NCBI GenBank assembly: GCA_037043015.1
Contig: CM073322.1
Location: forward strand, 29,868,864 to 29,932,863
Reading direction: 5' to 3'
DNA: 64,000 bases
Source of the DNA: Bryum argenteum
Lineage: Eukaryota > Streptophyta > Bryopsida > Bryales > Bryaceae
Part shown: in pieces, positions 6,670 through 55,602 of the stretch
How positions within the stretch are numbered: the first letter of the stretch is position 1
Layout: the number at the start of each line of letters is the position of its first letter
Program-made: the position numbers and the translations under genes
Notes under the pieces: model-generated
Database searches by the model: none
The model's input: only the letters and a program-made list of their open reading frames with translations
Told to the model about the DNA's origin: nothing

Positions 6670-6988
6670 TTAAGTGTTCAAGAAAGGCGGAAGGGAAGGG
6701 CTTGTTTCCAAGAGAATTTGCTCTGTGGCTATCGCTTTACTCAAGTTCCTTATTATATTTTGATGTCAAACTGGTCACCTTCTTATGATGCATTCGGAAA
6801 GTGAAATTGGAGTCGGATCACAATTTGTATGAGTAATTTTGTGCTTTGGAAGGATTGTGGTAGGTAGGTAGGTTGGGGTTGTACATAACCTTGTAGGAGG
6901 CTGCAAGCTTGGTTCATACATGATGCCCTAAGTTCAAAAGATGTTGTGATCTAATTTTGGGCTGCCCGTTTCAACGTTCAAGGGTTAG
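6670..6988 (-). mobile_element. TTAA MITE family A, copy 1 (reverse orientation)
   Basis: Read on the minus strand, this copy matches the family A elements at 9951-10,335 and 31,896-32,225 along its length. Shared words include 'gggctgcccgtttca', 'gttgtgatc', 'gtaggtaggttggg' and 'tattttgatgtcaaact'. Its right boundary has TTAG where other copies have TTAA, and the left end is diverged. No coding capacity. Confidence 0.75.
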
Positions 6989-9950: not shown

Positions 9951-10335
9951 TTAACCCTTGAAGGTCATTGGGGTCTGAAACGGGCAGCCCAAAATTGGAT
10001 CACAACATCTTTTGAACTTGGGCATCATGATAGTGCACTTTTAAAACTTGGGCATCATCAATAGACCAATCAATGATGAGCTTGCAACCTTCTATAAGTT
10101 TATGTACAACCCAACCTACCTACCACAATCCTTTCAAAGCACAAAATCACTCATACAAATTGTGATTTGAATTGTAGAATTTCACATTCTGATGCAGAAT
10201 TTCACTTCTTGAATGCATCAGAAAGTGACTAGTTTGACATCAAAATATAAGTGAAAAGTTGAGTACAATGAGAGCTACAAGGCATATTCTGTTGGAAAAG
10301 AACGCCTCGGGCTCACAAGGACCTTTAAGGGTTAA
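9951..10335 (+). mobile_element. TTAA MITE family A, copy 2 (best preserved)
   Basis: This 385-bp element is bounded by TTAA on both sides, with inverted ends TTAACCCTTGAAGGTC and GGACCTTTAAGGGTTAA. Two other copies of the same family occur in the window (6670-6988 reversed, 31,896-32,225). It contains no open frame of note. Confidence 0.85.
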
Positions 10336-29075: not shown

Positions 29076-29464
29076 TTAGATTTATTTTTTTTGTAAAAAA
29101 TCATTCTTTCCACAAAGGAGCACTATTAGATGGTGACTCAATCTGGACGGGACACTATTCCTCTTCTTTTCTTTCACTATCATTCTTTTCTACTTGTTAA
29201 TTCTTATCTTCTTCTTCTTCTTGTTTGAGCGTTTATTGCAATTTCTTGGTTTTTTGCTAGATTTTTTGAAATAGAATAAAAGGTTCGTCTTCTCAAATCC
29301 CCGGATGGAGTAGGGAGGATTATGATGCTTCGCATAGAGCTTGTAGTTTGAAATCCCACGCATTTCAGCCATTTACATATTTGTCATAGCAAAACCTACA
29401 CAAACTAGATTACATTTGGGACTCAACCCAAGTAATCTAGTCTAAAATGAAGTCCAGATGAAGA

Positions 29465-29536
29465 AGTTATAGCTCTTGAATTTTGCAGCCTTTCATCCGG
29501 ATGTAATTTTTCAACATTGTGGGCACTTAGGGGTTA
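29465..29536. mobile_element. Right end of a TTAA/CCCC-type element
   Basis: The sequence ends in CACTTAGGGGTTAA, the reverse complement of the CCCCTAA left ends seen elsewhere in the window. I could not place a matching left end with confidence. After the TTAA, 'cacattttataaca' recurs inverted beside the TTAACCCCTAAAGG end near 30,434, so these ends may belong to nested insertions. Confidence 0.45.
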
Positions 29537-29772
29537 AGGCACATTTTATAACAAATCTAAGTTTCTCTCTAAAAGGACTTTAGAGAGAACCAACTTTTGT
29601 TGACTTGTTCACAGAGACACATACATGGTTTGCAAAGTTTTGTTACAAAATTGATGCGGCTCGTCCTGCAGAATTTGCCTCAAAGGGAAACCGGCTCGTC
29701 CACTGGAAATTGCCTCAATACTCTGGATTGTTGATGAGTCCTTTACAATTTGATCAAAAAAGTAATATTCTG

Positions 29773-29998
29773 GGGTAAGCGTTCGTAGCAGCTACCAAGG
29801 AGGATGGAGGAGGGGTAATGAGCCCCCTAATTTTTTGATGTATAGACATTAAATGCCATGGAGTAGGCTTCCAAGGGTAACTTGGCGTCGTAGACCTCAA
29901 ATTTGAATTCAAAATTATCAAAAACGGTCTTGGGAGGTCCCCACAGATTCTAGGGTGCCTCCTTGGTAGCTGCCACGAATCATTGCCCGTAGAACTCC
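29773..29998. mobile_element. MITE with about 30-bp terminal inverted repeats
   Basis: The left end carries 'gtagcagctaccaaggagg'; the right end carries its near reverse complement 'cctccttggtagctgcca'. They bound a non-coding segment of roughly 226 bp. I cannot identify a target-site duplication. It is followed at once by a long T homopolymer. Confidence 0.7.
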
Positions 29999-30001
29999 GC
30001 T

Positions 30002-30008
<7 letters not shown>

Positions 30009-30048
<40 letters not shown>

Positions 30049-30072
30049 TTTATTTTATTTTTTTTTTTTTTC
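30009..30072. repeat. Poly(T) tract
   Basis: A T homopolymer of about 60 bases with a few interruptions. It may be the tail of a reverse-oriented retroposed copy, but no body is identifiable. Confidence 0.8.
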
Positions 30073-30917
30073 TTTCTTACACAAATAAACGAAATTCTTT
30101 ACTCGAGAGATAAAATATAAGGGCTTCCTTTGCCATGTTGGAACATATGACTTCCTAATCCATTCGATGAGATAGTCTTGGATAAGAAATTTCATTTAAA
30201 TGATAGTATTCTAGGTGTCATGTTGATACCAAAATCTAAATCACTTATTGCATCAAGATGGGTTGTGTAATATCATCTCTCTTTTGGGATGGCAATGCTT
30301 ATGCATTACAACTACACCACTTCGAGCCCAAAAATGGCCAAAATTCACATATCTCTCACCACTTTTCCAACCACCCTAAACTTGCTAATTTATAGAATAC
30401 GGAGCTATTTGAATTGAATGACCAATTTGGGCCTTAACCCCTAAAGGCCCAAGGGGTTTGAGAAAAACACTAAGATGTGTTATAAAATATGCATTTCATA
30501 ACTCCTATGAAGTAATACGTGTACCGAAAACAATATGATGACCTTAATGTCTAAATTAAATCTATAAGGTTGAACTTCCTAAAATAGTAACTATTTCTTT
30601 TATGTTGAATCAAAGACACTAAAAGTTTGAAAATCAATATCAATCAGAATCAATAAATTTCTTTCATTACTAATTGGAAATTGATATGATTGGCCAAAAT
30701 CACATATTTCATGATAACAAAGAGTGAGGCCACCAATAACCTACAATGAACACCATTAGTTTCCCAAAATGATACATTTTCTAGCACTAAGAAAACCTTG
30801 CCATGTTTGTGTTTGAAGGCTTATTGTGCACAATCTGTTACCCCAAATGAGAATTTGTTAATTGAATGTGATTCCCAACTTACCAAACTTTCAGAAAGTA
30901 AAAAAACTAATACTTTA

Positions 30918-30919
<2 letters not shown>
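30073..30919. other. AT-rich spacer with one TTAACCCC end
   Basis: No gene is seen. TTAACCCCTAAAGGCCC at about 30,435 is another terminus of the TTAA element group, without a clear partner. Confidence 0.4.

Positions 30920-30995
<76 letters not shown>
30920..30995. repeat. (TA)n microsatellite
   Basis: About 37 uninterrupted TA units. The 'YIYIYI' open frames through it are artefacts. Confidence 0.98.
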
Positions 30996-30996
<1 letters not shown>

Positions 30997-31079
30997 TCAA
31001 GCCTCTTTCATGTATCACTTTTAAGGAACAAGGAAAATACCATAGTATTAATGTGTCATATAAACGTTAATATGACTTT

Positions 31080-31566
31080 TTGGACACAATACTGTCACAT
31101 CAGTAAGGTATAACTATATCTTTATTGTTGATGCTCCTACCTTAAAAGGGTCTGCCATATGCACCAAAGTAAATCCATGAGCTAATCTACAAAGAACACA
31201 AGCAACTATCTTCTTAATCTCTAACTGTGGCCTAACTTGGTGAACACAAGTACTTTTCAAGAAAGGAGTCGACATTTTCAATAAGTTGTTGAAAGCGGGA
31301 AAACTCATTCTATAAAAGTGCTTGAATTTGTGATGATGCATATTCTCACTTGATCTCCACACTACTCTCTCCACATAATTCCAATGTGTGGATTCCCTTG
31401 GCTCAACCCAAAAATTCTTAATGACTTTTGACCTTTTTCTTTTATTGAGCCAAACTAAAAGAGGAAGAAGATGGAGAGTTAAAAAGGAAAACTTGCATAC
31501 TTTTAACACATGACGTGCTGTAGAAATGCTACTAATAGAAAAGGTCATGAGCATAGAGAGAAACAT
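31080..31566 (-). pseudogene. PIF/Harbinger-type transposase fragment
   Basis: A minus-strand frame of 150 codons contains YRMSFPAFNNLLKM, then a Leu-rich helical stretch (KKIVACVLCRLAHG) and FKVGASTIKI. This is the HARBI1/DDE_Tnp_4 layout 'FRMS..TF..LL...R....VAI.L.RLA.G.....A..FGVG.STV'. Only the N-terminal helix-turn-helix-like part is present. The frame closes just after STIK, and the DDE catalytic domain that should follow does not appear before the (TA)n tract. It is a truncated, dead copy of a plant DNA transposon. Confidence 0.75.
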
Positions 31567-31764
31567 TCAAATTAGCACAACTTGAGTTTGAAAAGAAGGC
31601 TCCATCTTCTTTTAAAATTGAACACAATGATGACAAGTAGTTAAAGATTTAAACCCTAAACCCCTAATTGATACAAATTTCCTATCACCTACACGAATAT
31701 AATACTAACATCAAAACACCTTTAAGATAAAATAAGTATAGAAAAAATAAAAAAAGGAAGAAAT

Positions 31765-31766
<2 letters not shown>

Positions 31767-31813
<47 letters not shown>
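31767..31813. repeat. Poly(T) tract
   Basis: A run of about 47 T residues following an A-rich segment. Confidence 0.95.
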
Positions 31814-31817
<4 letters not shown>

Positions 31818-31895
31818 AAAAAATAAAAAAATGAAAGAGAGTATCAAAACTCCAAAAGAAGGAGTATGAGAGTACAGAGACTCTCTTTTCAGGGG

Positions 31896-32225
31896 TTAAC
31901 CCGAAAACGCCAACGGGGTCTGAAATGGGCAGCCTAAATCATAGCATCTTTTGGACTTGGGCTTCATGAAAAGTGCACTTTTTGAATGTGGGCATCATGA
32001 ATAAACTAATCAATGATGAGCTTGCAACCTCTTACAAGGTTACGCACAACCCCCAACTACCTACCACAATCTTTTCAAAGCACAAATGATTCATACGAAT
32101 TGTGATTTGAACTGAAAATTTTGTGAATGCATCATAAGAAGGTGATTAATTTGACATCAAAATATAAGTGAAAAGTTGATTACAGACAGAGCTACACAGA
32201 AGATTCTGTTGGGGTCAGAGGGGTC
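31896..32225 (+). mobile_element. TTAA MITE family A, copy 3
   Basis: It begins TTAACCCG and follows the family A order (GGGGTCTGAAATGGGCAGCC, 'cttgggcttcatga', 'acctaccacaatc', 'gacatcaaaatataag'). The right terminus is lost or badly diverged near 32,225. The four G residues just before TTAA suggest it landed at the end of another element. Confidence 0.75.
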
Positions 32226-32264
32226 GTGGCAGGAGAAGACCTTTCGACCCGAGAAAAGCGGCAG

Positions 32265-32442
32265 TATGATACTGTAGCGGAATGAGCATTCTCATGGACT
32301 CATGGACCCCACACCGCCTTCGTTCACCATCTGCCAATCCGATGAAACCAGCATATGATACTGTAGCGGAACGAGCATTCTCATGGACTCATGGACCCCA
32401 CACCGCCTTCGTTCACCATCTGCCAATCCGATGAAACCAGCA
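32265..32442. repeat. 89-bp tandem duplication in the presumed promoter of the 33-kb gene
   Basis: Two nearly identical copies (32,265-32,353 and 32,354-32,442) beginning 'tatgatactgtagcgga' and ending 'gatgaaaccagca'. They lie about 600-770 bp upstream of the next start codon. The base composition resembles genic rather than repeat DNA. Confidence 0.9.
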
Positions 32443-33033
32443 TAGGACTCCCACTCAGTTCCGCAAATCAGAAGTTGTGACAGTGCTTACCTCCGGCTAC
32501 TCACCTGCCTCCTGAACTTTTGTCTAACAAGGCTGTACGTTGTCTCACTGCTCACGTTTCGAGCTGATTGCAAATTTGTAAGTAGCAGCATTTTCAGGTG
32601 TGTTTAGGAGAGACGTACGTAGATGATGTTTCACTCACTGGATCATCTTGCTTCCTTTCAATCCTTTTTCGGTTGAGAATCTATGCAGTTTTCGGGATCA
32701 CTGGTTTGATTGTTGGAAACATACATTACTTAGATGACTTTATATTAGAATTGTGCTAGAGCAGCGTTGACCTGACGAATTTCAATTACGTGCACAAATG
32801 GGTTCCTGGAGGTGATTAATTGGTATTGCCCCTGTGCTTTGAATCTTGGCGCTCCGGATTACAGGATGTAATTGATTCTGTTCTCGGTGTAATCCGTTCT
32901 GTCGTCGTACATTTTGATTTTGATTTTCCTTTTGGGTGTTGTTATCTCAACTTGAAAAGTAGCTGATTTCTTCCTAACACTTCTTGTGTTCCGCTAGTCG
33001 ATACGCAGTTTCTTCTTCAGACTCTTCGCAACC

Positions 33034-36000
33034 ATGTCGCAGACGAAAGGCATCAGTGGTGAGTTATCATTTCCTACCATCTTTCACTTTCCTCTGTAAG
33101 TCCTTATCATACTCCTGTACCTGAAATTTTCGTATATTTGAAGATCTGAAGTCTAAGAGGACTCATGGTCGTCTCTCAGATGATTTTCTAGTTTCATTTT
33201 AAACCTAATGGAACGATTACTCTTACACTGTTCCGTTCAGATGATTCAAGCATCACTTCTATCAACAATGAGCATCAAGACGACGTCCAAACCTCGCCAC
33301 CATTGATGGCGAAAACTCTGTTTACCGACTCAGGTGAGATTTTTGTATAATTTGAGTCTGAGTTTGCATGGTGATTGTGTGCTCCATCCATAGCTGCTTC
33401 GAGGAACGTGATGCTTTGAATGCGGAGCTTCCTGCTTTTTGTTTGGCCATGGAGATGCATGTTGATTACAGTTTTCTCCTTGATATGCATCTCACCATTT
33501 TCGAATCTCAGATATCCATGGCGTGCTAGTGTCAAAGGCCGATCCAAAGAAAAGTGAGCTGCCCGGAGAACCACCCAATCATTTGGATGAACAGGTATTA
33601 ACTCTCATTTTTTCTTGATAACTGTGGTTCAATTTGCTGGGTATGGCATATCTAACTTAGAACCGACTTCAGGTAAGTTTTGGTGCCAACTTTGCACAAC
33701 TAGGTGCAAGATGATGTTTTCTGGGCTCCACGTTCAGCGGTTGACTCTAGATATGCTAAGAAATTACATCATTATGAGTTCGGTACCCCAATATTCATCA
33801 ATATCCTTTCCAGTATGGATACTTTTGTGCAATTGAATCTCAGTGATTTCGTCATTGTGGACAGGAACGGGAAGGCAAAGTACGTGTCTGGGAGTTGAAT
33901 CTGGTGGCAGTTCTGTTCGGAATTGTTGACCATGAGATCCTCATCGATATCGTCACAAGACAAGTAACGTTTCTTTCAAATGTGAGAGGATGTTCTTATA
34001 AGCGATGCTGGACCCCTGAATACGTTCCGAAAGTTGAAAGGATGATCGAGAAGCTTTCTCGAGGTTGCAAATTGGACGAGATCATCTCCGGAGAAAAGGA
34101 TCTGGTTTTTCTTCGGAAACTTCTGGAGCACATACTGGACTCCGAAATCGTCTCGTCAAGCCGTGGTAATACTTCACCTCTCCCTTGTTGCAATGCCTGA
34201 GTACGTACTTTATAACAGCATCATTCACACCATGTTGGTGTAATGTCATTGAATATCAAATTCACGAGTGACCTGTATCGAGCGCACTTCCGTGAAAAGT
34301 TTGTCGATTTAGTGCAACGGGGGACGGCAGTCGTACGTACGACTACAATAGACGAGATAGAGTCGACTAACTCATTCCTTCTAAGAACCTTACCGGCATT
34401 TCCTTTTCCCGTCTGAGTACTCCTTCCATAGCGGATTCGAGGAACGTGATGCTTTGAATGTGGAGATTTATGCTTTTTGTTTGGCCATGAAGATGCATGT
34501 TAATGACAAGTGTGATTACAACTTTCTCCTTGATATGCATCTCACCATGTCTGAATCTCAGATATCCATGGCGTGCTCGTATCGAAGGTTGATCCCAAGA
34601 AAAATGAGCTGCTCGGAAAACCATCCAGTCATGTGGATGAGCAGGTATTTACTTTCAGTTCATCGTAATAACTGTGGTCCAAATTGTTGGGTATGACATA
34701 TCCAACTTACAACAAATTTCAGGGACTTTTTGGTTCTCATGATGTTTTCTGACCTCTACCTTTAGCTTCTACCGTTAGCTGTTGACCCTAAGTATCTATA
34801 ATTCTGTTAGAATGGTAGTATTCCAAGCACCCTTTTGTCACACCAACTTGCAAATGTATACTTCAAATATATTGTGTTGCTCAAGTTCACTCTTAATTTT
34901 TCAAAAATACAAATGTTAACATGGGCTTCAAATTCTGTATCATCACATGGTTTCTAGATGTCTATCTTGAAAGTTTTGACCCGTCTTTTTTACTAAATAT
35001 AGTAAATCTAATGAAATTATTGATCCTTAGATATGCTAAGGAATTACATCAGTGGGAACTTCTTTAAACACAAACATGGACAAGTTTAGGTATAAGATCT
35101 TACGGTTACATACTTGATTAAGTCAAAAGTTGAAAACTTTCATCTTGCAATGAAAGCGAGTAGTTTTGAGGAATTTTGGCACTTTTGGGGGTTTTCGACT
35201 TTAGGGGTTACATGAATTCCCAGAATTTTCTGTACCTTAAAATTCATCGCTGTTCTTTTCCCCTGTTCTTTTCCCTGAAGGTAGCTTTGTGCAATTGGAT
35301 CTCACTGATTGCGTCATTGTGGGCAGGAACCGGAAGGCGAAGTACATGGCGTGTTGGATCTAGCGGCAATTCTGTTGGGAATTGTTGGCCATGAGAACCT
35401 CATCGCTATCATCCTCAGACAAGTAACGTTTCTTTCGAATGTGGGAGGATGTTCCCATCATCGACACAGGACTCCTGAATACGTTCCGAAGGTTGGAGAG
35501 ATAATCGACAAGCTGTTGCGAGGCTCCGGATTGGACGAGATCATCGTCGAAGAAAAGGACCCGGTGTTTCTTCGGCAACTTCTGGAGCACATACTGGACT
35601 CCGAAATCATCTCGTCAAGCATCGGTATTACTTCACTGCTTGAATACTCTGTTACAACAGATGTCGGTAAATGTGCTTTACGACCTATCTCGAATTTTAG
35701 TGCCAATTCCGTGAAAAGTTGCCAAATAGTTACAGCGGAGGCGGCGATCTGACCTAGAATCACAATTGACGACATCAAGTCGACTAACTCATCCCTTCTT
35801 AAGAACCTTACAGGCATTTCAGTGAGAATGATTCTATTATTTTCACTAAGCCGAATAAGTCATTCAAATATAAGACACTCTCGGTGGGAGTGAAAAGCCT
35901 AGTGAAGTACCACACTTTTCGAGATTGTATCTTGCCATTTGTCTCGAGCTATCTAGCTTATCCTTCAGAGCGAAGGATCTCATTTGATACCATTTTCTTC

Positions 36001-36289
36001 CAAAGTATCTCATATGGATAATCCCGAGTAATGGAAAGCTCAGCTTCAAAGTAGCTTTGAGTTGAAGAGCTGTGTATTAGGGCGCGCGTGTGTACAAAAT
36101 AGGGTCTCGTCCGAGGTTGAGAGAGCTTGTAAAGCATCAATCTGAGTTGTTTCATTTGGTCTGACTGCAGATGCACAGAACGGGAGTGCATCAAGGCCCG
36201 ATGCGGTGCTCGAGGCTTTGGTAGCAGCACCATGCCACAGCCGTGCGTCTGCGAACTTGCCTGCGCACATTTGCGAGGAGGATGCTTGA
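33034..36289 (+). CDS. Unrecognised protein with an internally duplicated two-exon module, seven exons
   Basis: Exons: 33034-33058, 33241-33333, 33512-33594, 33865-34165, 34562-34644, 35327-35624, 36171-36289. They sum to 1002 nt, 333 residues. I do not recognise the family. The first 39 residues are acidic and polar. Residues 40-167 and 168-294 are two copies of one module. Each is a short exon starting DIHGVLVSK and ending in DEQ, followed by a long exon containing RQVTFLSNV, TPEYVPKV, LDEII, EKD, VFLR and LLEHILDSEI. The long exons are about two thirds identical by eye. Each two-exon module begins and ends in phase 1, so duplication keeps the frame. The last 39 residues are Ala/Ser-rich with three Cys. 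No signal peptide or membrane segment is visible; the module looks helical. The flanking introns are also similar between copies, so the duplication is fairly recent. Confidence 0.75.
34790..35211. mobile_element. Insertion inside the fifth intron of the duplicated-module gene
   Basis: In the second module, the intron sequence matching 33,735-33,765 ('gatatgctaag.aattacatca') is displaced, and about 240 bp of unrelated DNA is present. The 3' part ends in CGACTTTAGGGGTTA at about 35,195-35,210 and has 'aagatcttacggtt' near 35,095, features shared with the C/E MITE group. The exact borders are not clear. Confidence 0.45.
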
Positions 36290-36429
36290 GTGTTCGATGT
36301 AATTAAGTCCTCTCTCTGTCTCTCTCAGATCAGAATGGTTTCGAGACATGCTTGACCTCCACTTTGAACTTGAAGACCCGTGAGGATGGATCACATGGTG
36401 TGAAGTGTGTATAGCTAGCTACTATTGCT

Positions 36430-36945
36430 TTACTTATATTTTGTTCTTTTGTTTTTCTCCCTCTCCCTCTTCCTTTCCATTCAGATAGGAAATAGGAAAG
36501 GGTCCACTTCTTGGCCTATGTTCTTTCCTTGATTCTCTCGTTGATTGTATCTCCTTGCTTTATAAGAATTTTAGGATATCCTTCATTCCATGGATCCCTA
36601 CTTCCCAGCTATCCTCTGTTCTATTCTGGTTCCCCATTCTCTTTTTCTTTACTAATCACTCCCAACCTCAAATTTCCCATTCGCGGTTTCCATCCTTTGT
36701 TCCCGATTCCGGCTCCCCCATCCGGCCATCCCCCAATTTCCCTTCTTGGTTTCATCATTTGTTCCCGATTTCCATAATTTGTTCCCAGTTCCTATCATAT
36801 ATTCATGGTTCTCATTATTTGTTTTTGTTCCCATTCTCCGTGCCCAATTCCCAGTTCTTGTTCCATGTTCCCTTGATCTCCTCTTTACTCCTTTCTTTGC
36901 TTCATTTTACATGTTCCACATTCCTTGTCCCTTCGACTCTTGTTA
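36430..36945. repeat. Pyrimidine-rich degenerate short repeat
   Basis: About 500 bp built from variants of TTCCC(A/G)(A/G)TTCC. Almost all the C/T is on the plus strand. The long plus-strand open frame through it (Phe/Pro/Ser-rich, about 36,555-37,133) follows from the composition and is not called as a gene. Confidence 0.65.
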
Positions 36946-42332: not shown

Positions 42333-44382
42333 AGCTGTCTGTACATTCTTCGGAAGATATGATCAGTAATCTTCAAAGAACGAAGTTTTCTGCACCGTCT
42401 TGAGTTTTTGGATAGTTTGTACTTCGTTACCAAATTTTGCAATGTAGACTTGGTCCATTTTTGAGAGGAGGCCAAGGTGCTCAAGATTGTTCGGAACTAT
42501 TACTGTGTTGCTATTGCACAGTGAGGCATTTTCTGTAAGCTTCTTGCATCAATTCCAAGTGGAAGATCAATGAATTTTTTTGCGTGACTCGAAGGAACTT
42601 ATGTGCAGTCATTCAACTGCCTGTTTTGTGATATGAATTGTCTTCAAGTGCTATCGGTTTAAATGGAAACTGTAGATTGTGGTGCCCCGTTCAGAGTAAT
42701 CCATAAACGATAATAGTATTAAATTCTTTTTTAAAAAAAATCCACTGCAAAATTGTTGTGATATATGGTTGAACAGCCTATTTCTGAGCACCTTCCTAAA
42801 ACCGAACTCTACATGCCCATATTGAATCGAGCATCTCACCACCCGAAGTGGAGCTCATCAGTAGCTTGCCTCTTGCACAAACGCTAGGTGCTTTCCTCCC
42901 ACAGGGTGGTTCTTGTCCGCATGTGGGTTGGTGTGTGATGGGCATTAAGGAGTGAAACGCACAGTTTAATGCCCCACCTATGTCCCATTATAGCCGTCTA
43001 CTTGTCTCCCACTTTGGAAATTTATAGTAAATGGAGAATTATTGAGAAAATTATGATTCAACTTGGACTAATTTTCTGTTGTATTTGCTAATATGAGGGA
43101 AAAAGTTCATGTTCTGATTTTATGAAGAATTCCAAGAACCCCTTAAATGCTCAGGAATAGGCAGGTTGACTTTAGTTAATAATTATGATACCCTCTACAT
43201 AGTTGTTTAGTTTTCATTAACGTATTTAGGATGACCGTTCCTCTTTGTATCCTCTTCGTATCCTCTCTGTAGTGTGCATTGCAAAATAGGTACTGGCTCA
43301 AACATGGTATGAAGTACCAAGTTTTACACCCACAAGTACACCCTCCTTGGTGTGTAAATGTACATCATGGTGTACTAACTACACCGTTGGTGTAACTAGC
43401 CACTATTGCGTGTACCCAAAAGCGTGACATTGGAGCCAACGAAAGCGCCATGTGGAGTATATTTTTGGGTGTTTCCTCGACCTCCAGAACCAAAAACTGC
43501 CATTTTTCACCTTCGTTGGGAAATGGGGAAATGGAGAATTTTTTTTTTTCTGGTTTTAGACTTTGAACCGTAAGATCTTGTACCTAACTTGTATACAAAG
43601 GACTGGTCAAAATTTCAACCATTGGATGTTTGTCATTTGTGAGATCATAACAATCAAAGTTTGTCCAACACTTTTTTTTGCCTCTGCGTGAGAGGCGTTG
43701 TCTAAATGGTGCCAAGGGCAACTTGATGATTGTTACTCCAAATATTTTTCCCTCATTTTTTTTCATGTAGGTAATCAAGTTGGGTATGCTCATGCAAAAT
43801 TTTAGAGACCAATTCCACTTTTTGACCTTAATGTAAAATATTTTATGAAAGAAGGTCTAAAAATAACCATATAGTAAAACAAGCACCACATATGATATAT
43901 TTAGTTTGAGAAAAATCTCGACGGTGTGAAGGTGCATTATTTTATGATAATGTGAATTTCGAAAAAAAAAATCTTGAAAAAAAAGCAAAATCTCAAATTT
44001 TGGCAATTTTTGAAAGAAAAAATTGTAAAATTACTAGAAATTGTGAAGATTGTTTTTGAAAGTTTTGGAGGCTGCCCTTGTAAAATTGGTAAACTTTTTG
44101 ACTTTGGATACTTTGGAATTTGAATAGTAATTTGGTTATGAAAATATTTCTAAAAAAAATTAAAAAAATAAAATAATTTAACTGCCCGTTTTGAACTTGA
44201 AACCTAAAATTTCTAGATGAAGGTTATAAAATTAAAATTTGGCTTTACAAATTTTACCTCATACACATTACAATATGGGGAGCATCTTGTAAAAATCTTA
44301 GGCAATAATATCAATTTAATTCCTTAAAACGAGCTGCTCGAAATCTCAGAAAACCGAATCGCTTTTCCTGGATTTTTAGGGG
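42333..44382. other. 3' flank of NOL9-like gene and MITE-rich spacer
   Basis: The first 300 bp are probably 3' UTR. A reverse-oriented relative of the family C/E interior lies at about 43,560-43,690 (on the minus strand 'gttatgatctcac' and 'aagatcttacggtt'). The stretch ends in GGATTTTTAGGGGTTAA at 44,371-44,386, the right end of another TTAA element with no clear left end. No gene is seen. Confidence 0.45.
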
Positions 44383-44942
44383 TTAAGGTAGCGACACCCA
44401 TAACCGTCCCAATAAGCAAATATGGTTGGTTACAACCACCAAGAAAGCTTGAAAAAAATATCTACAGATTAGCAATTGAGAGTAAAAAATATTCGCTTTG
44501 AGAGAAGAGGTTATGTGACGAGCCTGAATTTATAAGAATTTTTCAAAGTACAAAATGAACATACTTATGTGCTTGTCCATAGGTGGAGCTAAAAATGACC
44601 ACGACTGAAGTGTTTGTTGTCCTGTAGCAGCTAAAAACCAAGAAAGATAGTTCCTATAAAAGTTAAACGGGAAATTGAAAAACGTCCCACCGTGGTTCAA
44701 AATTCCAAGCTGTGGATAAGCAAGATCTACCAGTAGAGGAAGAACATTAAAACACTATGCACTTTACACCATGACATACAACATCCATTTCCAACCAATC
44801 GGCAGTAAAGCACGCTTTAATGTACACCCATTACCGTCCCTTTTTCACAACAGTCAACTATGGGTCTGGAAAGGTCAGCAATAGGTACAATTATAGGTCA
44901 CACCAATTGGGACAAGGATGCTTATGGGTGTCGCTACCTTAA
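44383..44942. mobile_element. TTAA MITE with GGTAGCGAC termini, 560 bp
   Basis: TTAAGGTAGCGACACCCATAA at the left is perfectly mirrored at the right, with TTAA at both boundaries. Unlike the others its end is GGTAGCG instead of CCCT, so it is a different TTAA-targeting family. It sits against the GGGGTTAA end of another element, sharing the TTAA. No transposase. Confidence 0.85.
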
Positions 44943-46477: not shown

Positions 46478-48356
46478 ATGATGGAGATCGCAAACTATTG
46501 TGTTCTCTCTTCAGCTCGGGCGCCGTGTGTTTGGAATGCACCAACTCGAGTGCAAAAGCTCAGAAGATTTGGTATTCTGAATCCCTCAAGACATCTTCGA
46601 GCCATTACGGTATGCATTCTGTGTGGTGGATTCTCATTACTTTGTGTGAGAGCCTTCGAAATATACTTATGTAGTTTGTGTGTGACTTAGAAAAGATGCT
46701 ACCGCCACCTTCCTCCTTCGCTTGGTATACGAGCCCAAGCTCCAGACGACGAAAATCGGAGCTCTTCAGAGCACGAGAATCGAAGCTCTCCAGTGCACGA
46801 GAATCGGCGCTCTCCAGAGCTCAGCGATGTGGAGGTCGTCAAACGGGTTGAAGCAGAGCCATCGAAATTGCGTTACGGGTTGATAACAGGCCTGGCAACG
46901 GCAGGCTTAGTAGAAACCACTTATCTAACATGGATGAAGTTGTATGGCGGACCAGTTTCGTGTCCTCTTGGTGGCACTGGCTGCGACGATGTCCTCAACA
47001 GCGAATACGGCACAATCTTTGGTATGAAACATTTCCTATCGATTGCAAATCGCAGCATAATATGCAGACCACTTTCATGGGTCTTGTTTGTTGTGTGCAG
47101 GGGTGCCTCTGTCGCTGGTTGGGATGCTTGCATATGGAACTGTGGCGCTCTTAGCTGGTCGTATGGCGACAAACCCGAAGGATCGTGCCATTGAGGAGGA
47201 AGGGTTTGTGAAGTGGCTGTTGTTGGCGAGCACCACAGCAATGGGCGTTGCAAGCTCCTACTTCATGTATATTTTGAATGTCAATTTAGGTGGTGCATCC
47301 TGTACTTATTGTGTGGGTTCTGCGATTCTGTCAACGACTCTACTGTTGTGTACACTTGTGGTGAGCTCACTCATCCATTCTTCTTGTTGTTGTGCTCATT
47401 GTTTGCGAGGCAACTAGTTTTGTTACTGCCGACTCTGGAATTTGTAGTCACATGGCTGAATTGTGCAGGGTTTCTCTCCTAAAGACCTTCGAAATGTAGC
47501 TGGGGTTCAGTTCGCCGCCGGGGCCTCCGTCGCCTTAGTACTCTCTCTGGCCTTCAACAACATCGACTCTGTCGCTCTCAGGCATGTTGCTTTGATTTTA
47601 TGCAACGTCGTTTGGATAGCAGCTCTCAGGCATGTTGCTTTGATTTTATGCAACATCGTTTGGAATGCAGATACCAGGAATGTTAATCGAATTTCATATT
47701 TGATTGCAGGTCAGGTGAGATAGATCTACCACCGATATCTCCAGAAGTTACACATGTTTCGAGCTCACAGGAGATAGCGTTGGCTAAGCAGCTGAAAGCT
47801 ATTGGCGCAAAAATGTACGGTGCATTCTGGTGCTCTCACTGTTTCGAGCAAAAGCAGGTATTGTCAAAAACATGCCGTGTTCGTGCAACCTGCTTTTATT
47901 TAGAGCACACGAACCTGCTAAGTCTCCGTGATTTCAGATGTTCGGTAAGGAGGCTATGAAGTACCTCGATTATGTTGAATGCTACCCCGAGGGTTACAGA
48001 AGTGGAGTTCAAATCGCCAAGGAATGTGATGCTGTCGACATTCAAGGCTTCCCAACTTGGATTATCAATGGCCAGGTACATTGCTTTGTTGCCGCTTGTG
48101 AATAAATTTTATTAAGAAAGTGTTCATCAACTAATTATGTGTGGACTACTGGATGTGCAGAGTTTCGTTTTCTAGGTTTTCAAAGTGCATAACTTCATTG
48201 CTAATCCCTTGTGCGTTTACTACGTTTCTTATGTTGGCTTTTAGTCATGCCACGGATTGATGGTTTTGATGTTTGGTTCAGAAAATCTCTGGAGAACAGG
48301 AGTTCGCAAAATTGGCTGAGCTATCAGGACTTGATGCCAGTAAAGTACCCGAGTAA
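46478..48356 (+). CDS. LTO1: Plastid VKOR-thioredoxin fusion (LTO1-type thiol-disulfide oxidoreductase), seven exons
   Basis: Exons: about 46478-46609 (join uncertain), about 46696-47021, 47101-47360, 47469-47581, 47710-47857, 47938-48075, 48282-48356. LTO1 sits in the thylakoid membrane and forms disulfides in lumenal proteins, including PSII subunits. VKOR part: SCPLGGTGCDDVLNSEYG with the paired Cys, several hydrophobic segments, then the CTYC active site (SCTYCVGSAIL). Thioredoxin-like part: AKMYGAFWCSHCFEQKQMF with the CSHC motif, then YVECYPEGY and GFPTWIING. The N-terminus (MMEIANYCVLSSARAP...) is Ser/Arg-rich like a transit peptide. Splicing exon 1 at its best donor (46,609) does not keep frame with the VKOR exon. 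Earlier donors (for instance after 46,571, or at about the GTGTGT near 46,526) do, so the N-terminal join is unresolved. Intron 4 begins with GC. Confidence 0.92.
47574..47669 (+). repeat. 48-bp tandem duplication spanning a splice donor
   Basis: The sequence 'gctctcaggcatgttgctttg' and what follows occurs twice, 48 bases apart, covering the end of LTO1 exon 4 and the start of the intron. Each copy carries the GC-type donor CAG/GCATGT, at 47,581 and 47,629. Because 48 is divisible by three, either donor gives the same downstream frame; the second would add 16 residues. Confidence 0.8.
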
Positions 48357-49169: not shown

Positions 49170-51530
49170 ATGATCAGGATTGGATGGATGCTTTTCGTGG
49201 CATTGCTTTTGACGAGTTTGATCGAGGGAGCGCCCGTCGGAAGCAAGACGTACATCATCCACACAGTGAAGAATGCTACTCATGTGGCCGACTCCGTTGC
49301 CAAGCATGCCTGGTACTCGGAGCTCCTGAGGGGAGCAGGCGAGCTTCTTGACCCTGACCACCCTGACGACGGCACCGATAGTTTGCATCATGTCTACCAC
49401 CACGTCCTCAACGGATTCTCGGCCCGCCTTACTCAAGAGCAAGCAGCCTACATGAGAACGCTCCCGGACGTTGTAGCAGTCCACCCCGACCGATTTCACT
49501 TTGCCCACACCACGCACAGCCCGGAGTTTCTGGGACTTCCGACTTCCAAGATCTGGCCCGAGAGCAAGTATGGAGGAGACGCGATCATCGGAGTCATTGA
49601 CAGTGGAATCTGGCCTGAGAGTTTGAGTTTCAGCGACCATGGACTGGGACCCATTCCTGCTCGCTGGAAAGGCCAGTGCCAGACCGGGACCAACTTCACT
49701 GCTGCTAATTGTAACAACAAGATCATCGGAGCACGCTACATTTCGAAGGGGTTCGAGAGCGAATTCGGTGCCATCAACGACACTGTGACGGATTACAAGT
49801 CGGCTCGTGATGTCGTCAGTGGCCATGGGACACATGTGACTGCCACTGCAGCTGGACGATGGACTTACAGGGCGTCTAGCTCCTCTGGAGTTTTGAAGGG
49901 AACAGCTCGGGGCATGGCGCCCAAGGCCAGGATTGCAGTTTACAAGGTGCTGTGGCGAACTGCAGAGGGCAGGGTGACAGGCGCGGATTCTGATATTGTC
50001 CATGCTTTCGATCAAGCTGTGGCCGATGGCGTGGACGTAATTTCGATTTCCATTGGTCCCAATGTGGATAAGGAATGGGGATTGGTTGACCTCTTTGAGG
50101 ATCCCATCGCCATTGCAGCTTACCACGCAACCAAGCTCGGTGTCTTCGTTGCTGTATCCGGTGGAAACAATGGTGAGATCGGGTCGGGCTCTATCGCCAA
50201 CGTGTCGCCGTGGATGACCACGGTCGCGGCCACCACCACCGACCGTGAGCTCGTGGGGAGTGTGGTAGTCGGTAATGGAAGCATTTTCCAGGGGCGGTCC
50301 ACTTACAACGGCAAGGTTCTTAGCGAAATCCCTCTGATTTTCGGAGGCGATGCTGCAATCAACAGTACCGACTCAGAGAGTGCAAGCTTCTGCGAGGTGG
50401 GGACACTGAATGCATCACTTGTCATGGGCAAGATCCTCATGTGCAAATTCGACAAGAATATCATGCACCAGATGAGTTTCGGTGAGGCCGCCGGTTCTGC
50501 AGCTCTCATTCTGGCCAACACCGACGTCCTCGGAGAAGAGCTGTTCACCATCAATGGGGATCTTCCAAGTCCTGTGATCCAATTGGGCAACAGGGCGGGG
50601 GAGGGAATGATGACATACATCAAGCAAGCGAGTGTACCTGTGGCCACCCTCGGCGGTGCCAGCTCTGTTTTCGATGTTGTAGCTCCGAGAGTAGCAGGTT
50701 TCTCATCACGCGGACCCATCAACATCCTGGATCGGCCGGAGAAGCAGTGGTTGAAGCCGGACCTGGCGGCACCCGGAGTGGACATTCTTGCTGCAGGAGT
50801 GGGAGACGAGAGGTATCGGATCATGTCGGGGACGTCCATGGCATGCCCTCACATTAGCGGTGTCGCGGCCTTGGTACGCTCAGCTCATCCGAAGTGGAGC
50901 CCGGCAGCAATCAAGTCGGCCATGATGACCACAGCCACCACTTTGAACAACAGGAATCGCACCATCACGAAACAGGAGTCGGGAGCGACAGCCGGACCAT
51001 GGGAATTTGGTGCAGGCTTCGTGCAGCCAGAGAAGGCCATGAATCCCGGCTTAGTATACGACATGGGCGCGAACGACTACCTGAGGTTTCTGTGCGGATT
51101 GGGGTATGACAAGCAGACGCTCAGCAAGTTCGATCATGGGTTCCAGTGCCCGTCTCATCCACGAGCACGGATCGAAGATACCAATTTTCCGTCTTTCGTT
51201 GCTCGCTTCGACAACAGGAACTCGACACTTTCCTCTTCCGGCATGACATTCAACCGAGCTTTGACGAATGTGGCGCCTGTTGGATCAACATACACAGTCT
51301 CCGTGGACTCGCAGCGGCTGCAACATTTCAAAGTCGTGATTGAGCCGTCGACTCTGGCATTCTCGGCTGAAGGATCAATTCAGAATTTCACTTTGACTGT
51401 GGCACCGCTTTCTCATGCGGACTTCACCGGTCTTGCCCACGGCCATCGTATCGAGGAGACCGCGGTACTCTCGTGGTCGGATGGCGTGCATGTTGTTCAG
51501 AGCCCGATTGTGACTATGTTCTACGCTTGA
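49170..51530 (+). CDS. Secreted plant-type subtilisin-like serine protease (subtilase, S8A), single exon
   Basis: 786 residues, the usual length for plant subtilases. The parts in order are: a signal peptide (residues 1 to about 20, MIRIGWMLFVALLLTSLIEG); an I9 propeptide (about 26-113); and a catalytic domain with Asp144 (GVIDSGIWPE), His219 (SGHGTHV) and oxyanion Asn333 (VSGGNNG). A PA-type insertion lies at roughly 385-480, then Ser556 (MSGTSMACPH) and a fibronectin-III-like C-terminal domain. All catalytic residues are present, so the enzyme should be active and extracellular. There are several N-glycosylation sites (NAT, NFT, NDT, NVS, NST). The gene has no intron, unlike its neighbours; many plant subtilase genes also lack introns. 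The ATG follows a TATA box at 49,055. Substrate unknown. The 321-codon antisense frame across it is a shadow. Confidence 0.97.
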   Translation: MIRIGWMLFVALLLTSLIEGAPVGSKTYIIHTVKNATHVADSVAKHAWYSELLRGAGELLDPDHPDDGTDSLHHVYHHVLNGFSARLTQEQAAYMRTLPDVVAVHPDRFHFAHTTHSPEFLGLPTSKIWPESKYGGDAIIGVIDSGIWPESLSFSDHGLGPIPARWKGQCQTGTNFTAANCNNKIIGARYISKGFESEFGAINDTVTDYKSARDVVSGHGTHVTATAAGRWTYRASSSSGVLKGTARGMAPKARIAVYKVLWRTAEGRVTGADSDIVHAFDQAVADGVDVISISIGPNVDKEWGLVDLFEDPIAIAAYHATKLGVFVAVSGGNNGEIGSGSIANVSPWMTTVAATTTDRELVGSVVVGNGSIFQGRSTYNGKVLSEIPLIFGGDAAINSTDSESASFCEVGTLNASLVMGKILMCKFDKNIMHQMSFGEAAGSAALILANTDVLGEELFTINGDLPSPVIQLGNRAGEGMMTYIKQASVPVATLGGASSVFDVVAPRVAGFSSRGPINILDRPEKQWLKPDLAAPGVDILAAGVGDERYRIMSGTSMACPHISGVAALVRSAHPKWSPAAIKSAMMTTATTLNNRNRTITKQESGATAGPWEFGAGFVQPEKAMNPGLVYDMGANDYLRFLCGLGYDKQTLSKFDHGFQCPSHPRARIEDTNFPSFVARFDNRNSTLSSSGMTFNRALTNVAPVGSTYTVSVDSQRLQHFKVVIEPSTLAFSAEGSIQNFTLTVAPLSHADFTGLAHGHRIEETAVLSWSDGVHVVQSPIVTMFYA

Positions 51531-52275: not shown

Positions 52276-52748
52276 ATGTGTATTACGAAGGAATGTGAAG
52301 ATCCCACCGCGCCAGGAATTTGGTGGCGCGACGATGCAGAGTGGAAGAAGTATGGTGCTTGGCATGCATTATGCATCCGTTCTCGCAAGACTTCCGGGAG
52401 GACCGGCCGTAAAAGCAACTTAGTCAAGCTTGGGTTAGTCAAGAGCTCCAAGTATCCCAGTGGCACAAAATATGTGGTGGACTTGAGCACGATGAAGCAG
52501 ATCAACTCGACAACCGGGTTCACTCGCGACATCAAAGTTGTCAACGCCCCCGAAACTTCTCCCACGTCCGCTGAGTTCGACAACATGAAGGAAGAGATTC
52601 GAGCCTGTCACGAGGTAAGCAGTCCATTAAACTACTCTGTGTCAAGCAGTTGCTCGTACTGAGATCATTAACATGTGAGATGTGAATGCAGGAGCTCGGG
52701 GAATTGAAGCAGGTAGTACACGAACTGATAGCGGATATCTCCAACTAA
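52276..52748 (+). CDS. Small WWE-domain protein, two exons
   Basis: Exons 52276-52614 and 52692-52748 give 131 residues. Residues about 14-92 look like a WWE domain: GIWWRDDAEWKKYG at the start, then YVVDLSTMKQINSTTGFTR, which follows the family pattern 'Y.vDF..M.Q.N..TG..R'. WWE domains bind ADP-ribose units or act as protein-interaction folds in PARPs and in ubiquitin ligases. In plants they are known mainly from the RCD1/SRO proteins. Here no PARP-like, RST or RING domain accompanies it. The C-terminal about 35 residues (EFDNMKEEIRACHEELGELKQVVHELIADISN) look like an amphipathic coiled coil, so it may dimerise. The frame stays open for 33 more codons after the TAA. The call rests on motif spacing judged by eye. 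Confidence 0.7.
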
Positions 52749-54641: not shown

Positions 54642-55459
54642 CTACTTGAGCATGGGAGAGTAGCCGGCGAACCAGTGTTTGAAGCCTGCAGGTACCGGCA
54701 GGCCGACAGTGCGAGCGGCGTCCAGGAGGAGGTTGTGGCCAGTGATGTAGCCAGCTTCCTCACTGCATAGAAACAGCACGGCGTTGGCCACGTCCAAACT
54801 GGTGAGTGGCCGATTGGGCAGCAGAGCTCTCTGGGCCATGCGGTCCTTGGTTTGCTGCAGGGTGTAAGCCTCCCCCGTGGAATCCTGCATCACCCTCTGG
54901 AACATGGGCGTGGCCGTGGCGTCCGGCGACACCATGTTGATGCGGATGCCGTAGTCGCGAAGCTCCAGCGACGTGGTGCGCACCAGCCCCTTGAGCGCCG
55001 TCTTGCTCACACAATAGGTGTGCGGCCCCAACCCGCCCATCATACTCGCCGAGCTGCCCGTGCACACTATCACCCCCTGCATCGAGGGCTTCATCACGCG
55101 CGTGGCGTGCTTGATGCCCACCACCGCCCCTCGCAAGTTCACGGCCAACGTCTCATCGAACTCCTCCAGGCACAGCTCCTCGATGGAGCCCAACGCGCCC
55201 ACGAAGCCCGCGTTGCTGAAGTAGACGTCCAACTTGCCCTTCCATCGCACGGCTTCGTCCACCAATGCCGCCACGTCTTGCTCCTCTCTCACGTCGCATT
55301 TCACGAACTGCGATCGCTGCTCCCCCAACTCTTCACACAGCCGCCGCCCCGACTCCTTGTTAATGTCCGCGATCACCACGTACGCGCCATGCTCCACGAA
55401 CTGACGCGCTGTCGCCTCCCCTATTCCACTTGCTCCCCCCGTCACCACCACCACCTTCC
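54642..55459 (-). CDS. Short-chain dehydrogenase/reductase of the plant SDR110C type (last exon)
   Basis: This classical SDR is an NAD(P)-dependent oxidoreductase with a Rossmann fold. The visible motifs are: cofactor site TGGASGIG; Asp after beta-2 (VVIADI, which favours NAD over NADP); KCDVREE; FSNAG; catalytic Ser in CTGSSASMMGG; and Tyr and Lys in YCVSK. These are followed by YGIRINMVSPDATATPM, typical of SDR110C, the group that includes xanthoxin dehydrogenase (ABA2), tasselseed-2 and secoisolariciresinol dehydrogenase relatives. The substrate cannot be told. A 280-residue frame starts at ATG 55,484. However, TTTGCAG just before GG-AAG-GTG (55,459) is a strong acceptor, and an upstream exon ending LEEK with a donor at 55,602 joins in frame (LEEKGKVVVVTGG). 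So the true start is probably upstream and unresolved. The long plus-strand frame opposite is a shadow. Confidence 0.92.
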
Positions 55460-55602
55460 CTGCAAACCTGTGATCAGCTTCCAAAGCACTGATTTCATCC
55501 TTCCCACCACAGAATCACTTCCTCCACAAACCACATTATCACAACACCATCGCCTCTCATTCATATCGAATTATGGAAAATTGCCACAAGCAAGCGGGTA
55601 CC

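Follow-up and report, generated by a model that had tools for sequence, protein, structure and literature searches.

A two-module gene of Bryum argenteum is probably a chimera of two paralogous single-module genes

The window analysed here, a stretch of 64,000 nucleotides of Bryum argenteum DNA (C2:29868864-29932863), contains a gene that carries two consecutive copies of a two-exon module. This gene has no single closest relative along its length. From 5′ to 3′, the closest sequence switches from a locus on contig C3 to a locus on contig C9, then back to C3 in module 1 and again to C9 in module 2 and the 3′ end, so that different parts of the gene have different closest paralogues, and the switches between them are clustered. 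Because each module is closer to a paralogue on another chromosome, our preferred reading of the gene is a chimera. On the sequence comparisons described below, we consider it probable that non-allelic recombination between two paralogous single-module genes produced it. We refer to the two parental types as type A, represented today by the copy at C3:13.921 Mb, and type B, represented today by the copy at C9:8.070 Mb.

The gene lies on the forward strand and has seven exons. Exon 1 (33034-33058) starts with the ATG and has a matching exon in the C3 paralogue L007, and exon 2 (33241-33333) follows. Module 1 is composed of a short exon (33512-33594) and a long exon (33865-34165), the latter encoding approximately 100 amino acids that are helical according to a weak prediction. 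Module 2 has the same composition, with a short exon (34562-34644) and a long exon (35327-35624), and the last exon (36171-36289), whose surroundings are C9-like, encodes a conserved C-terminal tail and the stop. The six introns are all GT-AG, and their phases are 1-1-0-1-0-1, with phase 1 after exons 1 and 2, phase 0 after the short exon of module 1 and phase 1 after its long exon. The model comprises 334 codons including the stop, or 333 amino acids, without an inner stop. The seven-exon structure with agreeing phases proposed by a sequence-only reading of this DNA is thus reproduced. The same reading had described a module of about 128 residues, which we find as two in-frame copies of 384 and 381 nt in one model. 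It had also judged the long exons to be two thirds identical by eye, and their measured protein identity is 68% over 100 columns; the three blocks that it singled out, RQVTFLSNV, TPEYVPKV and LLEHILDSEI, are the same in both modules. Furthermore, the symmetric phase-1 introns that border the modules on both sides keep the frame, as had been argued, and the four module-skipping products that we tried are all in frame.

The similarity between the modules extends beyond the coding sequence. Two DNA repeats link them, of 284 nt and 222 nt, each at 83% identity and far above chance, and blastn alignments show that intron DNA was copied as well, with 33376-33684 matching 34414-34734 and 33824-34402 matching 35286-35820. 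Between these two blocks, the inner-intron stretch does not align as a whole between modules. The inner intron of module 2 contains a dispersed repeat (35065-35210) that is in place also in the C9 copy, and the inner introns of module 1 and of both C3 genes are short and lack this repeat (270, 271 and 253 nt). Of the 46 matches listed, 35 fall on this repeat, with 40 of 851 candidates scored. A transposon was considered and rejected, given that the long exon occurs at six places in the genome and that, among the matches scored (again 40 of 851 candidates), only 35065-35210 is dispersed within the gene region. We also regard it as extremely unlikely that the structure represents two separate genes, one per module. 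Each module does resemble a different paralogue, but exon 2 and the last exon each occur once in the window by tblastn, as does exon 1 by eye, and tblastn with these three exons as queries found no remnants of them between the modules (34166-34561) at E ≤ 10.

The relatives of this gene in the genome are few. In 258.8 Mb of sequence on 25 contigs, a protein search with the long exon of module 1 found six places: both window modules and two each on C3 and C9, with one of the C9 places partial. The same six places were found at E ≤ 10 when the most distant family member was used as the query. The last exon occurs at five places, including one that contains a stop and has an E value of 0.11, and a further place on C9 holds exon 2, in a broken frame, together with a short exon. 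The two C3 genes, L007 (C3:13920851-13922461, 201 aa) and L008 (C3:13937247-13938834, 235 aa), are intact five-exon models with the phases 1-1-0-1, and they share this plan, the long exon and the C-terminal tail with the window gene; unlike the window gene, they have one module each. The number of modules in relatives, which the sequence-only reading had proposed to compare among species, can be stated within this genome, where one module is the rule for both of the other intact models. L007 differs from the window gene further in that its intron 1 and 3′ end are distant, and its intron 4 donor (ATA/GTTTCC) seems weak by eye. The long exon of L008 is 60-66% identical to the four other long exons, and its short exon is 167 nt long, compared with 83 nt. 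In the main C9 copy (8.070 Mb), the exon 1 region is missing, and the long exon lacks 1 nt close to its 5′ end, so that the frame is broken as modelled; this copy is probably dead. The two further C9 places are fragments.

The evidence for the chimera comes from comparing the window gene with the C3 and C9 copies segment by segment. The 5′ flank (29397-33033) is collinear in pieces with the C3 flank, read on the minus strand from C3:13932427 to exon 1 at C3:13922461, both loci having insertions and the pieces having identities of 95% (29397-29767), 91% (30040-30665), 93% (30661-30904) and 96% (32157-32223), and the piecewise collinearity of the C2 and C3 loci, interrupted by insertions, continues from 29397 to 34162. 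Directly upstream of exon 1 (32540-33033), the identity is 89.3% to C3 and 68.2% to C9. Within this otherwise C3-like 5′ half lies a C9-like tract (33083-33395), which covers most of intron 1 up to the start of intron 2, with identities of 91.7% to C9 and 80.2% to C3; the indel state of the window is that of C9 both in intron 1 and where intron 2 begins. The following unit (33396-34165), which is module 1 and includes the end of intron 2, the short exon, intron 3 and the long exon, is C3-like. In the segment that runs from intron 2 into the start of intron 3, its identity to C3 is 96.8% (C9, 85.5%), and in the long exon segment, 33824-34165, it is 91.4% (C9, 82.8%). C3 is alignable in two segments, and there module 1 groups with it at supports of 87 and 89; the two also have a 12-nt gap in intron 2 in common. 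Module 2 is closer to C9, with 89.5% identity from intron 2 to the start of intron 3 (C3, 82.9%) and 96.2% in the long exon segment, 35286-35624 (C3, 84.6%). In three module segments, it groups with C9 to the exclusion of module 1, with supports of 100, 100 and, in intron 4, 98. Finally, the 3′ end (35880-36450) is 90.7% identical to C9 and 73.8% to C3, and the tree support is 99. The 5′ flank and module 1 are therefore closest to type A, and module 2, the last exon, the 3′ flank and the tract of approximately 310 nt at 33083-33395 are closest to type B.

The non-coding distances follow the same pattern. Kimura two-parameter (K2P) distances between the closest pairs range from 0.049 to 0.116, and those from C3 to the window upstream of the gene and in the introns of module 1 fall in this range, whereas the distances from the window to the other type in the flanks and intron 1 range from 0.344 to 0.673. 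In intron 1, the window is at 0.095 from C9 and at 0.368 from C3; farther downstream, C3 is at 0.344 from the window at the end of intron 4 and at 0.673 beyond the stop. Moreover, sites at which the window agrees with just one of the two copies, C3 or C9, occur in clusters. On the path through module 1, 220 such sites fall into 56 runs, and none of 10000 shuffles produced as few. On the path through module 2, C9-like sites outnumber C3-like sites by 191 to 42, and they form 55 runs, as few as in 22 of 10000 shuffles; at 36200-36299 on this path, six sites are C3-like and six are C9-like.

These comparisons bear directly on the proposal of the sequence-only reading that the two modules arose by a recent, local, in-frame duplication through exon shuffling. 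The modules are indeed direct repeats in register and in frame, with phase-1 borders, but they are not sisters in any of the three module segments tested. Their mutual identity is 84.2% from intron 2 to the start of intron 3, 83.2% in the long exon segment and 72.1% in intron 4, and they are separated by a K2P distance of 0.431 in intron 4 and of 0.154 in introns 2 and 3. The distance from module 1 to C3 is 0.049, and that from module 2 to C9 is 0.104 in introns 2 and 3 and 0.092 in intron 4, although in introns 2 and 3 the interval for module 1 to module 2 (0.104-0.209) partly overlaps that for module 2 to C9 (0.063-0.154). The copies are thus not each other's closest relatives. The nearest relative is C3 for module 1 and C9 for module 2, so the duplication was not recent and not a simply local event, and we consider the original proposal very unlikely.

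A recombination event that was out of register may account for the gain of the second module. In such an event, intron 4 of a type-A gene would have been joined to intron 2 of a type-B gene; because both of these introns are in phase 1, the product would stay in frame and gain a module. The candidate junction is the intron between the modules (34166-34561), which we read as a hybrid, with a donor side from type-A intron 4, an acceptor side from type-B intron 2 and a junction near 34400-34416. Intron 4 of the C3 copy does not align to the donor side, and we infer its type-A label from its position after module 1 and from its identity of only 73% to C9. A single fusion would leave the B-like tract at 33083-33395 unexplained, which calls for one more exchange at the least; this tract may be a gene-conversion patch or the result of a second crossover. 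Several observations count against the chimera. The tree support for grouping the B-like tract with C9 is 72, the four-sequence tree of the segment directly upstream of exon 1 shows no supported grouping (36) though the identities differ widely, and the C3-like sites on the module-2 path are also somewhat clustered. The A-to-B distances in introns 2 and 3 all take intermediate values (0.154-0.216), with the overlap between intervals given above, so the module cores may have exchanged sequence later.

The main rival to the chimera is an older two-module gene. According to this explanation, the module was duplicated in tandem within the gene long ago, and the C3 and C9 copies spread later from the two-module gene, each losing one module. 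This history would explain why the C3 and C9 copies each resemble one of the window modules more closely than these resemble one another, and intron 2 of the C9 copy matches what would remain if the window gene lost one repeat unit. The C9 copy itself may derive from a two-module gene. However, the older duplication predicts a roughly even distance between C3 and the window gene along its whole length, and the low distances upstream and in the module 1 introns contrast with those in intron 1, at the end of intron 4 and beyond the stop. It also requires that parts of C3 were replaced. We therefore regard the older duplication as unlikely, while giving it serious weight, and we prefer the chimera.

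A large collinear block was rejected. When the whole window was compared with C3 over 76 kb and with C9 over 65.5 kb (blastn, at least 150 nt, E ≤ 1e-10), collinearity was restricted to the gene and its 5′ flank; the other matches are scattered, one of them being 921 nt long at 43471-44387. In the surroundings, an insertion of approximately 802 nt (30905-31706) is absent at the collinear place on C3, and a minus-strand open reading frame inside it (31114-31566) had no match in Pfam; we take it to resemble a Harbinger transposase. An 89-nt head-to-tail duplication, 99% identical, lies upstream of the gene (32265-32442), and a 31-nt reference recurs downstream (36680-36851) as a run of six degenerate copies, with a spacing of about 20 nt in most cases. 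A repeat of about 230-350 nt occurs three times in the window (6708-6939, 9951-10295 and 31896-32212) and has relatives at C3:13953.7k and C9:8040.1k. The neighbouring open reading frames at 46793-47194, 49170-51530, 52276-52662 and 54642-55484 have matches to the VKOR, subtilase (with fn3_6 and I9), WWE and short-chain dehydrogenase families. Neither Rfam matches nor tRNA genes were found in the window. On C9, a stretch (L010, C9:8073947-8076759) has inverted ends of 582 nt that are 99.7% identical, and its right end adjoins the truncated family copy that starts at C9:8076758. Two other C9 stretches, C9:8052325-8061163 and C9:8089416-8100376, are repeated to each other in pieces at approximately 71-96% identity; the first stops 4 nt short of the family fragment at C9:8061167 and may have cut this fragment off.

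The gene had been called unrecognised, and this description holds within the libraries that we searched. Pfam returned no families at E ≤ 10, the best values in NCBIfam and PHROGs (E = 0.13 and 0.032, each for one of three members) were not usable, and a sequence search of the PDB gave no usable match. Pattern matches in viral contigs (14) and in prokaryote genomes (108) were in no case confirmed. AlphaFold2 models of the long exons, built from two sequences each, are all-helical with five helices, at a pLDDT of 66 for module 2 and 58 for module 1; because these models are weak, we claim no fold beyond "helical". A Foldseek search of the PDB with the model of pLDDT 66 alone gave 59 matches at E ≤ 10, the best at 0.99, and none at E ≤ 0.001. 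With relatives sought in its own genome, in viral contigs and in prokaryotes, we read the family as a putative lineage-specific group of small, soluble, helical proteins. The predicted product of the window gene would be soluble, with an N-terminus that is probably disordered, two tandem helical domains and a conserved tail. Because the module borders are in phase 1, alternative splicing could yield A-only, B-only and A+B proteins, and the corresponding products of 206, 205 and 333 aa are all in frame. We would guess, with low confidence, that a binding partner is recognised by the helical module, and that a tandem pair raises valency or allows splicing to pick an A or a B domain. There is a slender chance that, by uniting A-type and B-type modules, the locus provides a new two-domain protein or a choice of domains through alternative splicing from a single promoter.

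Whether the gene is still working is a separate question, which is compatible with any of the histories above. It may be a decaying or untranscribed copy whose open frame is left over from its parents; we consider this a doubtful explanation, albeit a substantial one. The long exons have dN/dS values of 0.48-1.06 in ten pairs, none of them significantly below 1 (smallest p, 0.086). The value for module 1 against module 2 is 1.06, and those of the window modules against their closest relatives are 0.62 and 0.48, neither significantly below 1; exon 2 has values of 0.85-1.74 in three pairs. The state of the C9 copies, one without exon 1 and with a broken frame as modelled and two more reduced to fragments, also fits decay. 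On the other hand, the reading frame is open in all five long exons across the part that was compared, and a substitution-only neutral simulation (kappa 3, with the C3 sequence as the root) kept all five open in 119 of 5000 runs. The gaps in exons are few and, except for the C9 shift, measure 3, 9 or 12 nt, whereas the gaps in introns are many and of mixed lengths. The splice sites are kept. The short exon has dN/dS values of 0.17-0.36 in eight of ten pairs (one other is 0.87 and one undefined) and the last exon of 0.38-1.30 in six pairs, values that are based on small numbers and on pairs that are not independent. These signs of coding constraint apply to the family; for the window gene itself, the sequence gives a weak indication.

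In exon shuffling, a block that is bounded by phase-1 introns on both sides can be gained in frame. The window gene is similar in having gained an in-frame block bounded by phase-1 introns, and it differs in that this block is unlike a cassette copied recently from the same gene. Another parallel is found in the Dm resistance genes of lettuce, where gene conversion or unequal crossing over between clustered paralogues is reported to have generated chimeras (PMC3924838). In both cases, a new gene would result from an exchange between related copies. In contrast to the lettuce genes as described there, the closest relatives of the parts of the window gene now lie on contigs different from its own, very few family members were found and no known domain could be recognised. 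This kind of event is known in plant gene families (PMC3924838), and here it concerns a small family for which the libraries searched gave no match. An apparent recent duplication of a module within one window can thus prove otherwise after comparison with paralogues elsewhere in the genome. The gene may represent a readable case of in-frame domain gain, in which the frame survives an out-of-register exchange between paralogues because the intron phases match.
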